Source: Bacteroidia bacterium (GTDB lineage Bacteria; Bacteroidota; Bacteroidia; Chitinophagales; Chitinophagaceae). From it: a stretch of DNA of 64,000 nucleotides. The notes under the pieces were generated by a model that was not told where the DNA came from, did not search any database, and worked only from the letters and a program-made list of their open reading frames with translations. Positions 42,126-48,318 of this stretch are shown here, in pieces. Position numbers and translations under genes: made by a program. Location of the stretch: the NCBI GenBank assembly GCA_030427635.1, contig JAUIBA010000001.1:186001-250000 (forward strand), read 5' to 3'. Numbering within the stretch: the stretch's first letter is position 1; each line of letters begins with the position of its first letter.

Positions 42126-43961
42126 ATGTCTGATAATTATATAGTATCGGCCCGTAAGTATCGTCCGCAGACGTTTGATACAGTGGTGGGGCAGAGCCAT
42201 ATTACAACTACTCTCAAGAATGCGATTAAAAATAAGCATCTGGCACATGCTTATCTGTTTTGTGGTCCGCGAGGAGTAGGGAAGACCACCTGCGCACGCA
42301 TACTTGCAAAGACGATAAACTGCGAGTCTCCTACTGCCGAGCTTGAGGCTTGTGGTAGCTGCAGCACCTGTATCAGTTTCCGGGACAATACTTCTTTTAA
42401 TGTATTTGAGCTGGATGCTGCCAGTAACAACTCTGTGGATGATATTCGTGAACTGACCAGTCAGGTGAGGTTTGCGCCACAGCATGGTAAATACAAGGTT
42501 TATATAATAGATGAGGTGCACATGCTCAGTGCCTCGGCGTTCAACGCTTTTCTTAAAACACTGGAGGAGCCACCTCCCTATGCCATATTCATCCTGGCTA
42601 CTACCGAAAAGCATAAGATATTACCTACCATACTAAGCCGCTGTCAGATATTTGACTTTCGCCGTATTACTACCGGCGATATTGTAGGTCATCTGCAGGG
42701 CATAGCCGGTAAGGAGCATATGGTAGCCAATGAGGCAGCACTGCATGTGATAGCCCAGAAAAGTGAGGGGTGTATGCGTGATGCCCTCTCTATGCTGGAT
42801 CGTATAGCCAGTTTTACGAACGGTATGCTTACTTACAGCAATACCATGGAGCACCTTAATCTGCTGGATGCAGATTTTTATCTGCAGCTGGTAGATAATA
42901 TGCTGGCACAGGATGTGGCTGGTGTGCTGCTGAAGCTGGATGCTGCTCTTGAAAGGGGCTTTGAGGGGGATGTAATACTGGGAGGGCTTGCTGAGCATTG
43001 CCGTAATCTTATGCTTTGTAAAGACGACAGAATGGCCCGCCTGCTGGATGTGCCCGGCGAGCACCGTAAGATGTACTATGAAAAGGCCAATCAGACGCCA
43101 CCATCATGGATAATATCTGCATTGAATGTATTAAACGAGGCAGAACTTGGCTATCGTAATGCTACAAACAGGAGGCTGCATACCGAGATGTGTCTCATAA
43201 GGCTATGCTTTCTGCTGCAGGTAGTGAGCGGTACTTCTGTTAATACGGCAGTAGCCGACGAAAAAAAAAACTACAGTAATGTAGGGTCTTCGGTTCCCCC
43301 GCCGGCAGTTTCGACAGCAGTACCAGTACCACCTGCACCATCTGTTGCCCCCCAGGTACCACCTGCACGGCAACCACCTGTGGAGCCTTCTTCAGCAGCG
43401 CAGGTTTCCTCTGTGCCATCATCACCACTACCGGCTCTGCCACCCACTGACACAAAACCGGCAATAAGCAGCACTGTGCACGAAAATAAACCAGTGCCAC
43501 AAGCCCGTAAGGTGAGCCTGAATATGATTGATGACCTGGATGATGCGATGAAAAACGCTGCTACGCAGTTAAGCTCCCGTCCAACAGAAATACAGGGAGC
43601 GCTGGCGGCAGAACTCTTTGAGCAATACAAACAGGAGCTGCAGGCTGCAGGGAAAGGTGTACTGTTTTCTCAGTTTTCACTAATGAAGATAGAGGTACAT
43701 CCACCTGATGAGGTAAGGATTGTTTCGCCGCATGAGCTTACAGACACTTATGCAAGGGAGCAGCGTAACCATATGATTGACTTTTTTACGAAGCATGCCG
43801 GAATGACCATCCGTATCACTAATGAGATAAGGGAGGATGCATCACTAATGCCTGAGGAAAACAAGATATTGAGCAAAAGTGAAATGTACGAGGTCATGGT
43901 ATCTAAAAACCCTAACCTGGCTAAGCTTAGAGACGGGTTAGGGCTTCAGATAGAGTTTTAG
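42126..43961 (+). CDS. dnaX: DNA polymerase III subunits gamma/tau
   Basis: This 611-aa clamp-loader ATPase has Walker A GPRGVGKT at 47-54, the Zn-binding Cys cluster (NCES...CGSCSTC), IIDEVHMLS and an SRC motif (LSRCQIFDFR). Domains I-III occupy residues 1 to about 375; then comes a Pro/Ser/Val-rich linker (about 385-455) and the tau-specific C-terminal domains that would bind polymerase and DnaB. Ten consecutive A bases (43261-43270) lie at codons 379-382, exactly at the domain III/linker border, with stops just beyond in both other frames. This predicts a short gamma product of 384-385 aa made by slippage or frameshifting. Confidence 0.96.
   Translation: MSDNYIVSARKYRPQTFDTVVGQSHITTTLKNAIKNKHLAHAYLFCGPRGVGKTTCARILAKTINCESPTAELEACGSCSTCISFRDNTSFNVFELDAASNNSVDDIRELTSQVRFAPQHGKYKVYIIDEVHMLSASAFNAFLKTLEEPPPYAIFILATTEKHKILPTILSRCQIFDFRRITTGDIVGHLQGIAGKEHMVANEAALHVIAQKSEGCMRDALSMLDRIASFTNGMLTYSNTMEHLNLLDADFYLQLVDNMLAQDVAGVLLKLDAALERGFEGDVILGGLAEHCRNLMLCKDDRMARLLDVPGEHRKMYYEKANQTPPSWIISALNVLNEAELGYRNATNRRLHTEMCLIRLCFLLQVVSGTSVNTAVADEKKNYSNVGSSVPPPAVSTAVPVPPAPSVAPQVPPARQPPVEPSSAAQVSSVPSSPLPALPPTDTKPAISSTVHENKPVPQARKVSLNMIDDLDDAMKNAATQLSSRPTEIQGALAAELFEQYKQELQAAGKGVLFSQFSLMKIEVHPPDEVRIVSPHELTDTYAREQRNHMIDFFTKHAGMTIRITNEIREDASLMPEENKILSKSEMYEVMVSKNPNLAKLRDGLGLQIEF
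43261..43270 (+). other. A10 slippery run in dnaX, predicted gamma/tau switch
   Basis: Ten A in a row. In-frame reading continues AAC TAC AGT. One extra A gives AAA CTA CAG TAA; one fewer A gives ACT ACA GTA ATG TAG. Either shift ends translation within four codons. Confidence 0.7.
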
Positions 43962-43984
43962 AGAACTCGTACATTCATTTCTGG

Positions 43985-45442
43985 TTATGCTACTATATGA
44001 CCATACCGGTACATGTCTATAAGCTCAGGATGTATTCCCCAGTCATATGCTCCTACTTTGTCATGTAGCCTGTTGAGCTCATCAGCGTGCATTTGCTTTA
44101 TTTTTTCAGCAAGCTTGTCATGTGATGGTACGAACCCATGTTGGTAAGATGCACTCACAAGATTCTTGACCGTAAGTTCTATCGCTTTTTCGCGCGACAT
44201 ATTACGTATCAACTTTCTTTGAGGGCTGAAATACTCGTATCTGGGGTCAATTTCTTCATTGTGTATGATTTTACATAGTGTGTCTGAAAGCACCGGAGAA
44301 AGGTGAAATCCGTCACGTTTTGTTCCGGTGGCCACAATAAGGTTTTGTATGGAGGTGCGGCCTATTACGGGATAAGCGTCAGCACTCAATGGGCGGGCAC
44401 CAACATTAATAGTAGAGATAGTAGATTTATAAAAGTCGGTATTTATCTGTTCAATGGCACCGGTAAGTAAAGACTGAACAGACCCTGTTCGTGCCAGTGT
44501 ATCTTCCCGGGAAGGTGATACGAAGTTACTGGACCCGATGATAATTTCATTAAGCGGGGACTTGTGACCCACATAAAAAGGTACTGTATAGAGTCCGCAT
44601 GCCAAACCCCTGTTGGGAGTTCTTATGGTTTTTGTATGTGGCGCACCAGGACTTTTCAATTGTATAGATACTCCTATGCTGTAAAATATCCGGGGTATTG
44701 ACACTCCTACGGCGCTTCTGTCAAGAAAGTCACTGGCAGTAGCTCCGGTTGTAAGGAGAAACTGGTCGCCTTCCACAATCTGACCATTATTAAGACGAAC
44801 TGCAGATATGGAATTTCCTTCTTTCAGAATAACGTCTGCCTCTTCATCAATGAGTGTAATGCAGTCAAACTTTTCTACAGATGCTTCTATAGACCTCAGC
44901 GTGAGTTTAGGGTTCAGCCAGCCTTCGTTAGGTATGTACAATGCGCGTGTTGCTCTGTGTCTTTCCTGGGGTTTGTAATTGGGGATGTCTTTCGGATTTA
45001 TTTCAAAATGTGGCTCCATGAAATCCTTGAGAGCCTTTAGCACTACATCATAGTTTGTATCGTCAAGAGAGTCAGATGAGTGGTTGTTTATCAGATAGGT
45101 TCCCAGTTCAAAACAAGCTCCTTTAGAGCCCTGGCATGTTGCACATTCATCAATGAGGCAATTGCGCTTCATAGCGATATCCATATGGTCCAGTACAAAC
45201 TGAGGCCATATGCGTGTTGCCTGATAACTAAGTTCGAATCTAAAAATATCTATATCATTTTCAAGTCCATGCTCATCGAGTTCACAAAAAGAGTTGAGCA
45301 TAGCAGCAGCTGCCATAGTAGCAGAGTCGGGTCTGCTCTTTTTACCTATAATTATAATTCTGTCGTTTGTTCCGGCTCTTAATGCCAGTCTCAGTGCAGT
45401 GGTTAATGCGATAATACCATTGCCTATTATAACTGTAGTCAT
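43985..45442 (-). CDS. FAD-dependent oxidoreductase (DAO/glycine-oxidase-like)
   Basis: The 485-aa product has an N-terminal FAD-binding beta-alpha-beta (TTVIIGNGIIALTTALRLAL, a GxGxxx variant) and a C-terminal NLIVATGTKRDGFHLSPVLSD that closes the flavin site, as in D-amino-acid/glycine oxidases and ThiO. The middle is larger than in ThiO (about 360 aa) and an extra helical C-terminal part of about 90 residues follows. No thiamine gene is nearby. It is convergent with dnaX. Substrate unknown. Confidence 0.8.
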   Translation of the reverse strand: MTTVIIGNGIIALTTALRLALRAGTNDRIIIIGKKSRPDSATMAAAAMLNSFCELDEHGLENDIDIFRFELSYQATRIWPQFVLDHMDIAMKRNCLIDECATCQGSKGACFELGTYLINNHSSDSLDDTNYDVVLKALKDFMEPHFEINPKDIPNYKPQERHRATRALYIPNEGWLNPKLTLRSIEASVEKFDCITLIDEEADVILKEGNSISAVRLNNGQIVEGDQFLLTTGATASDFLDRSAVGVSIPRIFYSIGVSIQLKSPGAPHTKTIRTPNRGLACGLYTVPFYVGHKSPLNEIIIGSSNFVSPSREDTLARTGSVQSLLTGAIEQINTDFYKSTISTINVGARPLSADAYPVIGRTSIQNLIVATGTKRDGFHLSPVLSDTLCKIIHNEEIDPRYEYFSPQRKLIRNMSREKAIELTVKNLVSASYQHGFVPSHDKLAEKIKQMHADELNRLHDKVGAYDWGIHPELIDMYRYGHIVA

Positions 45443-47975: not shown

Positions 47976-48011
47976 TTTTGGTTAATTATGTAAAAAGTTA
48001 TTGATTTTTTT

Positions 48012-48040
48012 TTTGCATTCAGAATATTCCGTTACCTTTG
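48012..48040 (+). promoter_or_regulatory. Promoter of rpsT (TTTG -33 and TACCTTTG -7)
   Basis: A T10 tract (48005-48014) ends in TTTG (48012-48015); exact TAnnTTTG is at 48033-48040, 17 nt further. The gene starts 26 nt downstream. Confidence 0.6.
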
Positions 48041-48066: not shown

Positions 48067-48318
48067 ATGGCAAACCACAAAGCAACCAAAAAAGACGTCC
48101 GTCAGAGTGAGAAGCGCCGTGAACGCAACCGTTACTACGGTAAGACAACACGTAATGCCATACGTACACTTTTAGCCAGCGACAAAACAACTGCAGAACA
48201 GAATCTTAGCAAAGTTATATCAATGATTGATAAGCTGGCTAAGCGCAATGTAATCCATAAAAACAAGGCGAGCAACCTGAAGTCAGGTATCGTAAAGAGA
48301 ATCAGCGCAATGGCTTAA
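48067..48318 (+). CDS. rpsT: 30S ribosomal protein S20
   Basis: This 83-aa basic helical protein binds 16S rRNA in the small subunit. The N-terminus MANHKATKKDVRQSEKRRERN and the later IDKLAKRNVIHKNKASNLKS are the S20 signature. It is a single-gene unit with its own promoter and a strong terminator. Confidence 0.97.
   Translation: MANHKATKKDVRQSEKRRERNRYYGKTTRNAIRTLLASDKTTAEQNLSKVISMIDKLAKRNVIHKNKASNLKSGIVKRISAMA

Follow-up and report, generated by a model that had tools for sequence, protein, structure and literature searches.

A conserved adenine run flanked by stop codons in dnaX of Bacteroidia as a candidate site of RNA polymerase slippage

The dnaX locus

The window, meaning the whole 64,000-nt stretch of Chitinophagaceae DNA analysed here, carries a dnaX gene (Table 1) that is the single full-length dnaX match in its 4.25 Mb, 49-contig genome; a second, weak match covers 66 residues and is part of another ORF. 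The Pfam families PF13177, PF22608 and PF12169 locate the ATPase, lid and domain III between residues 23 and 365, and the ORF is matched by the NCBIfam models for DNA polymerase III subunit gamma/tau, with TIGR02397 scoring above its cut-off. A run of ten adenines (A10) starts approximately 13 residues beyond the end of domain III (residues 246-365), where the Pro-rich linker begins, in agreement with the preliminary description, which had put the run at the border between the two.

The sequence around the run reads GAC GAA AAA AAA AAC TAC AGT AAT GTA GGG. A transcript with one additional A would be read as GAA AAA AAA AAA CTA CAG TAA, giving a predicted product of 384 aa, and one lacking an A as GAA AAA AAA ACT ACA GTA ATG TAG, giving a predicted product of 385 aa. 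The zero-frame tau and the immediate termination following either shift, both part of the preliminary description, were thus confirmed. No known element was found by an Rfam scan of positions 42900-43700, and a scan of 42900-44000 for promoters and terminators returned nothing exceeding shuffled sequences. Two tRNA-Lys genes, with the anticodons UUU (L397) and CUU (L405), are present in the genome, and there is no further tRNA-Lys among the remaining tRNA places scanned.

Table 1. Features of the dnaX locus, in window positions
Feature	Position	Strand	Description and basis
dnaX	42126..43961	+	Tau in the zero frame, 611 aa; ORF, Pfam, NCBIfam, sole full-length match in the genome
Region common to tau and predicted gamma	42126..43260	+	ATPase, lid, domain III and some 13 linker residues; Pfam
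A10 putative slippery run	43261..43270	+	Codons 379-382 of 611; A9-A12 kept in 321 of 365 loci
Short RNA hairpin CGGC-agta-GCCG	43246..43257	+	4-bp stem ending 3 nt before the run
Tau-only part	43271..43961	+	Pro-rich linker and C-terminal domain; zero-frame ORF, homologous downstream tau part in relatives
Stop codon TAA	43277..43279	+	Reached if the mRNA has one extra base, or by a -1 ribosomal shift
Stop codon TAG	43282..43284	+	Reached if the mRNA lacks one base or has two extra

Survey of dnaX loci

Matches to dnaX were identified in 32 of 35 genomes searched from the same genus, 232 of 244 from the family, 58 of 59 from the order, 78 of 80 from the class and 59 of 61 from the phylum, these sets overlapping in part; at the thresholds used, every matched genome in the order, class and phylum searches had one dnaX match. 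Family loci were drawn from the matches listed, mostly as one per genus with most second species of a genus left out, and the named set comprises the best 80 of at least 587 candidates, making it biased towards near relatives. One partial match in the class (G341) and nine of the 44 phylum-level matches were left unread, and one locus (L002) represented another gene. Removing 24 exact duplicates and four loci cut at a contig end from the 393 dnaX loci left 365 evaluable, distinct loci; as these are related by descent, the counts given below are non-independent trials. The codon matching residue 360 served as an anchor, and a run was scored where nine or more consecutive A's occurred within the following 240 nt.

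Conservation of the adenine run

Runs of at least nine A's were present in 321 of the 365 loci: 32 of 32 in the genus, 100 of 104 in the family sample, 47 of 51 in the order, 62 of 76 in the class, 16 of 35 in the wider phylum and 64 of 67 in the named set. An alignment with close relatives had been suggested as a check of the preliminary description, and A9 or A10 is kept in all 32 readable loci of the genus. Overall, A9 was observed at 129 loci, A10 at 176, A11 at 14 and A12 at two, while the longest run was of eight A's at a single locus. The onset of the run lies a median of 54 nt past the anchor (5-95%: 28-83 nt), in a linker that is variable in both length and sequence, and domains I-III of the surveyed genes contain one run of nine or more A's in 394,734 nt.

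Of the 44 loci without a run, 19 are among the 35 from outside the class. Those of several phylum-level families, such as f72, f73, f78 and f84 (L280-L292, L295-L297 and L299), have a dnaX lacking nine consecutive A's, which implies a gain or a loss of the putative slippage cassette between them and the Bacteroidia.

Such runs could arise without any recoding if a Lys-rich motif (KKK or KKN) were retained for the sake of the protein and encoded by AT-rich codons. Lys is common at this site, the upstream part of these genes uses AAA for 68% of its Lys codons, and synonymous codon resampling alone is expected to generate at least nine A's in 110.6 of the 365 loci; however, 318 such loci were observed within the first 50 zero-frame codons. 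Furthermore, the run occupies all three codon phases (87, 112 and 122 loci), and where AAG follows the first AAA AAA, the interruption is offset by a preceding codon ending in A in 48 of 49 cases. The excess over resampling, the use of three phases and this compensation together indicate that the selected unit is the nucleotide run, and a Lys motif would account neither for stop codons in both alternative frames nor for the 46 loci, described below, in which tau is out of frame. A pure origin in codon bias or a Lys motif was rejected on the resampling and AAG-compensation data, and we consider it very improbable. On the sequence evidence, the presence of the run in dnaX is not due to chance.

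Stop codons in both alternative frames

Frames were analysed at 319 of the 321 loci with a run, leaving aside L083, which has N's beside the run, and L364. In the frame entered when a base is gained, the first stop codon follows the run after a mean of 1.85 codons, compared with 10.6 under synonymous resampling and 12.3 under shuffling, in which the 40 downstream codons were permuted; in the other frame the mean is 4.35 codons, against 13.8 and 15.2 respectively. None of 300 simulations matched these means, either for the whole set or for any single taxonomic layer, and for the phylum layer (n = 16) the observed share of loci stopping within eight codons was attained in one of 300. Both alternative frames terminate within eight codons at 289 of the 319 loci, which bears out the conservation of the two stops that the preliminary description had suggested checking, as against 16-33% at eight control places in the same genes and, for the 44 loci that lack a run, 23% at one place and 14% at another. 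A chance origin of the double stops was ruled out by the resampling, the shuffling and the control places, and the arrangement is strongly constrained across these sequences.

Termination soon after the run is also what would be expected of -1 ribosomal frameshifting at A_AAA_AAA or A_AAA_AAC within it, which would yield gamma in the manner of A_AAA_AAG in Escherichia coli. The run in the window suits such a shift, having the heptamer in frame, and across the survey it is the -1 frame in which stops fall nearest. Seven A's would nevertheless suffice for a heptamer, yet a run of eight was found only once and runs of nine or more at 321 loci, and the stop codon of the other frame is under selection as well.

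Frame states of dnaX

At 273 of the 319 loci, including that in the window, the zero frame encodes tau. At the remaining 46 it encodes gamma and ends at the run, the tau part lying in another frame, displaced one way at 37 loci and the opposite way at nine. The two-ORF arrangement, with tau out of frame, is thus absent from the window. A downstream tau part was recognisable in 42 of the 46 gamma-in-frame loci and 264 of 272 tau-in-frame loci (profile from 80 relatives, E <= 1e-5), the four gamma-in-frame loci without a match all being phylum-level. In gamma-in-frame loci, which include L149, L155, L157, L159, L161, L162, L172, L173, L202, L231, L246, L265, L277 and L278, the zero frame stops right past the run at approximately 375-425 codons and is followed, in another frame, by an ORF of around 150-235 codons resembling the C-terminus of tau. 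Such genes are likely to be annotated as truncated, and the survey suggests that this may apply to many dnaX genes. NCBIfam holds a short gamma/tau model (NF011516, 397 positions) beside a long one (NF011515, 620 positions), and the former may reflect gamma-in-frame genes having been taken for complete.

On a FastTree tree of domains I-III, containing 318 of the 319 loci (one labelled row being too short), the frame states require approximately 30 changes, compared with 38-46 in 200 label shuffles, and form 32 all-gamma clades, seven of which hold two or more loci. Family f15 is gamma-in-frame at all five of its loci, and sequencing error therefore cannot be the cause of every frame swap, although it may explain some of the 25 confined to single loci. 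Both run length and frame vary among close relatives: L216, L217 and L220 have A11, A11 and A12, and most of the window's genus has A9 with tau in frame, while L059 has A10 with gamma in frame.

Variation of this kind might be produced at the DNA level, replication altering the length of the run and thereby toggling tau within a population, as in phase variation, and the differences just described between close relatives are consistent with this. Tau is essential in other bacteria, and an off state should therefore be lethal unless corrected during expression; furthermore, whole groups such as f15 are gamma-in-frame, and the stop codons are selected as if for a product, unlike those of an off switch. 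We consider phase variation even less probable than the origin from a Lys motif. If tau is likewise essential in the gamma-in-frame lineages, these must change frame during expression. The shift required at 37 of the 46 loci is that which a -1 ribosomal slip would provide, but the other nine need the opposite one.

RNA secondary structure around the run

The short hairpin upstream of the window's run has a z score of -1.56 (24 nt) relative to shuffled sequences, and a longer, imperfect stem of 36 nt (-10.8 kcal/mol) one of -1.87; neither is significant alone. The 60 nt following the run show no downstream stem-loop (z 0.51), and the AGGA and GGAG motifs are absent from the 20 nt before it, both features being at odds with ribosomal frameshifting. 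The 110-nt stretch across the run gives a z of -2.07 (7 of 200 shuffles) through long-range pairing, and RNA structure may therefore act on ribosomes at this site. Over the 319 loci, downstream windows have a mean z of -0.35 to -0.47, with controls at -0.13 to -0.26. The slight advantage over controls, like the fold of the 110-nt stretch, counts against the polymerase, but the weakness of the signal also argues against the ribosomal alternative; together with the value for the window, it led to the rejection of a strong downstream ribosomal stimulator.

Upstream, by contrast with control positions, folding is enriched immediately beside the run. The 24-nt windows ending at it have a mean z of -0.97 (sem 0.09) relative to dinucleotide shuffles, whereas those ending 6 to 400 nt earlier have means of +0.05 to -0.26, and the upstream-abutting fold scores below -2 at 107 of the 319 loci, against 41 of 319 control windows. 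This was observed in the family (34 of 99; controls 9), the order (19 of 47; controls 2), the class (29 of 62; controls 13) and the named set (21 of 63; controls 5). There was no such enrichment in the window's own genus (3 of 32, against 7 of 32 control windows) or in the wider phylum (1 of 16, against 5 of 16). Stems scoring at least 14 occur at 76 of 319 runs but only 263 of 5104 control places, and swapping the 3' arm onto the upstream stretch of another locus gave stems in 5.5% of cases, compared with 22.9% for true pairs. Stems of eight pairs directly adjoin the run in L265, L277 and L278, and L171 has one of nine pairs.

Perfect or near-perfect hairpins of 7-9 bp, with a 3' arm ending 0-4 nt before the run, are found in L062, L066, L071-L073, L077, L146, L171, L248, L265, L277 and L278. 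Their sequences are dissimilar across lineages, and they resemble an intrinsic terminator with A's in place of the U-tract.

Other comparisons of the upstream fold were less distinct. Relative to synonymous variants, it was only weakly in excess (mean z -0.44, with controls 9-300 nt before the run at +0.26 to -0.33), and the share of loci in the lowest 5% of such variants was 0.125 at the run and 0.132 at 60 nt. In a fixed register, pairing at positions changed on both sides scarcely exceeded that under permutation (0.398 against 0.377, 0.423 against 0.403 and 0.430 against 0.421), leaving almost no covariation. A9 runs, moreover, have a weaker hairpin than A10 runs, opposite to the expectation for a helper of short runs. 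The hairpin is thus an enriched feature outside the genus, one for which the fold statistics leave a conserved structure unproven, and is likely to be a modulator in part of the class, with no general requirement for it. The preliminary description had proposed that no hairpin is needed, which may hold for the window's genus; elsewhere in the class, a hairpin abutting the run is enriched.

Proposed mechanism

We infer that the A10 run is probably a programmed site of RNA polymerase slippage through which dnaX yields both tau and gamma. Ten template T's would form an RNA-DNA hybrid consisting entirely of A:T pairs, on which the transcript could re-align and thereby gain or lose A's, such that a single transcript pool would hold dnaX in all three frames. 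Translation of the zero frame would give tau, and that of either other frame would stop within a few codons to give gamma, which would keep clamp-loader domains I-III but lose the C-terminal domain and the greater part of the linker. A cassette of A9-A12 and a stop for either alternative frame is kept by most of the Bacteroidia examined, and many lineages beyond the window's genus also have a hairpin, predicted to form in the nascent RNA, that ends 0-4 nt before the run; with such a cassette, tau and gamma would arise irrespective of the exact run length. The encoded frame would be expected to drift between the tau-in-frame and gamma-in-frame states, because slippage re-mixes the frames.

Slippage by the polymerase, which the preliminary description had considered workable, is preferred over that by the ribosome because both stop codons are selected, the lower limit of nine A's is sharp, nine loci need a shift other than -1 and a tRNA-Lys(CUU) is encoded in the genome, and because there is no downstream hairpin in the window. 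Enrichment of the upstream-abutting hairpin over the whole set also speaks for slippage by the polymerase, and the 44 loci without a run speak against it. Since the 110-nt stretch folds and the upstream hairpin is absent in the genus, confidence in this mechanism is slightly lowered. Ribosomal frameshifting at the run, in which the A_AAA_AAC heptamer would serve as the slippery site, is nonetheless unlikely. With modest confidence, we lean towards the broader proposal that dnaX is frame-indifferent in most Bacteroidia: the hairpin, the A9-A12 run and the double stops would let RNA polymerase set the mix of tau and gamma while the encoded frame drifts freely, and dozens of lineages would make tau only by slippage.

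Relation to known recoding systems

The mechanism class is already known. In Thermus thermophilus, transcriptional slippage occurs at an A run in dnaX (PMC1088944, PMC5009743), nine A's being the known threshold for slippage by the polymerase (PMC1088944, PMC5009743), and the presence of a tRNA-Lys(CUU) has been linked to it (PMC5009743). The window's gene is similar in having at least nine A's, close stops in both non-zero frames, a zero-frame tau and two tRNA-Lys in the genome, although the Thermus-type class is also defined by heterogeneous run lengths in the mRNA and by production of both tau and gamma at about 1:1. The Bacteroidia additionally have A9-A12 runs, swaps of frame state among relatives and a hairpin enriched in the class, slippage being in their case deduced from sequence. 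The preliminary description placed the run at the same position as in the known cases, which holds only loosely: the window's run lies 62% along the gene, compared with seven-eighths in Thermus (PMC1088944) and two-thirds in E. coli (PMC5009743).

The E. coli gene, in which A_AAA_AAG is preceded by a Shine-Dalgarno-like element and followed by a stem-loop (PMC5009743, PMC3711429), shares with that in the window its identity, the pair of products, as predicted here, and an A-rich slippery site. Unlike in E. coli, the window reads A AAA AAA or A AAA AAC, without A_AAA_AAG, and has no AGG in the 20 nt upstream of its run and no stem-loop in the 60 nt downstream. In place of the single tRNA-Lys that reads both AAA and AAG in the E. 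coli type, two are encoded in the window's genome, which is also unfavourable to the ribosomal alternative.

In 2013, Antonov et al. described 17 two-ORF dnaX genes from 12 genera, with runs of A7-A10, nine of them A10, and proposed transcriptional slippage (PMC3711429). The 46 loci with a zero-frame gamma and tau elsewhere are of this kind. Two-ORF genes are treated in that report as a structural type of their own, while in the present survey both types appear as states of one cassette (273 and 46 of 319); the window's tau-in-frame type would escape searches for disrupted ORFs. The main text of the report names Chlorobi examples with shorter runs and no Bacteroidetes among the nine A10 genes. 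The preliminary description was aware of no report of the arrangement in Bacteroidota; two-ORF dnaX genes with A10 were on record from 2013. Our search for slippage in Bacteroidota dnaX, by titles and the beginnings of abstracts and mostly outside the subscription literature, found no account of it.

A stem-loop directly 5' of a slippery run has a counterpart in a Roseiflexus IS element, in which it promotes polymerase slippage at U5C5 with a single-base deletion and is strictly needed (PMC5009743). The inverted repeats described here lie likewise directly 5' of the run; in contrast to the IS element, the A run is long enough for slipping alone and the hairpin is found in only part of the relatives. 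In Blochmannia, restoration of the dnaX frame has been proposed to occur through slippage in a poly-A tract (PMC3017870), but these are AT-biased endosymbionts with more than 100 coding tracts of at least nine A's each, the dnaX tract being downstream of the gamma/tau site, whereas the Bacteroidia have one conserved dnaX site in ordinary genomes.

What seem to be new are the breadth of the arrangement in the Bacteroidia, the apparent selection on both stops, the repeated swaps of frame and the hairpin. According to a 2012 review, most bacteria beyond the enterobacteria and Thermus have a dnaX devoid of any frameshift signature and may produce no gamma (PMC3290774); by contrast, in most Bacteroidia examined such a signature persists under strong selection, an argument for gamma being useful to them. 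The gamma-in-frame lineages, if the proposed mechanism is correct, would need slippage to replicate their chromosome. The survey also provides natural variants by the hundred, differing in run length, frame and hairpin, from which the slipping of RNA polymerase could be studied.

Other long adenine runs in the window and genome

The window contains two A10 runs, compared with 0.17 expected by shuffling, a count of at least two being reached in 5 of 100 shuffles. The genome has eight distinct A/T runs of ten or more (ten pattern rows), of which that in dnaX is the only one deep within a long ORF, with 378 codons before it and 229 after. Another, an A10, lies within a stop-to-stop ORF of 260 codons, five codons from its 5' edge, and five of the remaining runs are within stop-to-stop ORFs of at most 54 codons. 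A second coding run in the same genome is an A11 (L433; C30:55953-55963, minus strand), situated in a stop-to-stop ORF of 490 codons, of which 446 precede the run and 40 follow it. The window's second A10, at 48005-48014 (T10 on the plus strand), is upstream of an ORF that begins at 48068, reads MANHKATKKDVRQSEKRR and is taken to resemble ribosomal protein S20; the sequence TTTG...TACCTTTG between the T10 and this ORF resembles the promoter of Bacteroidota.
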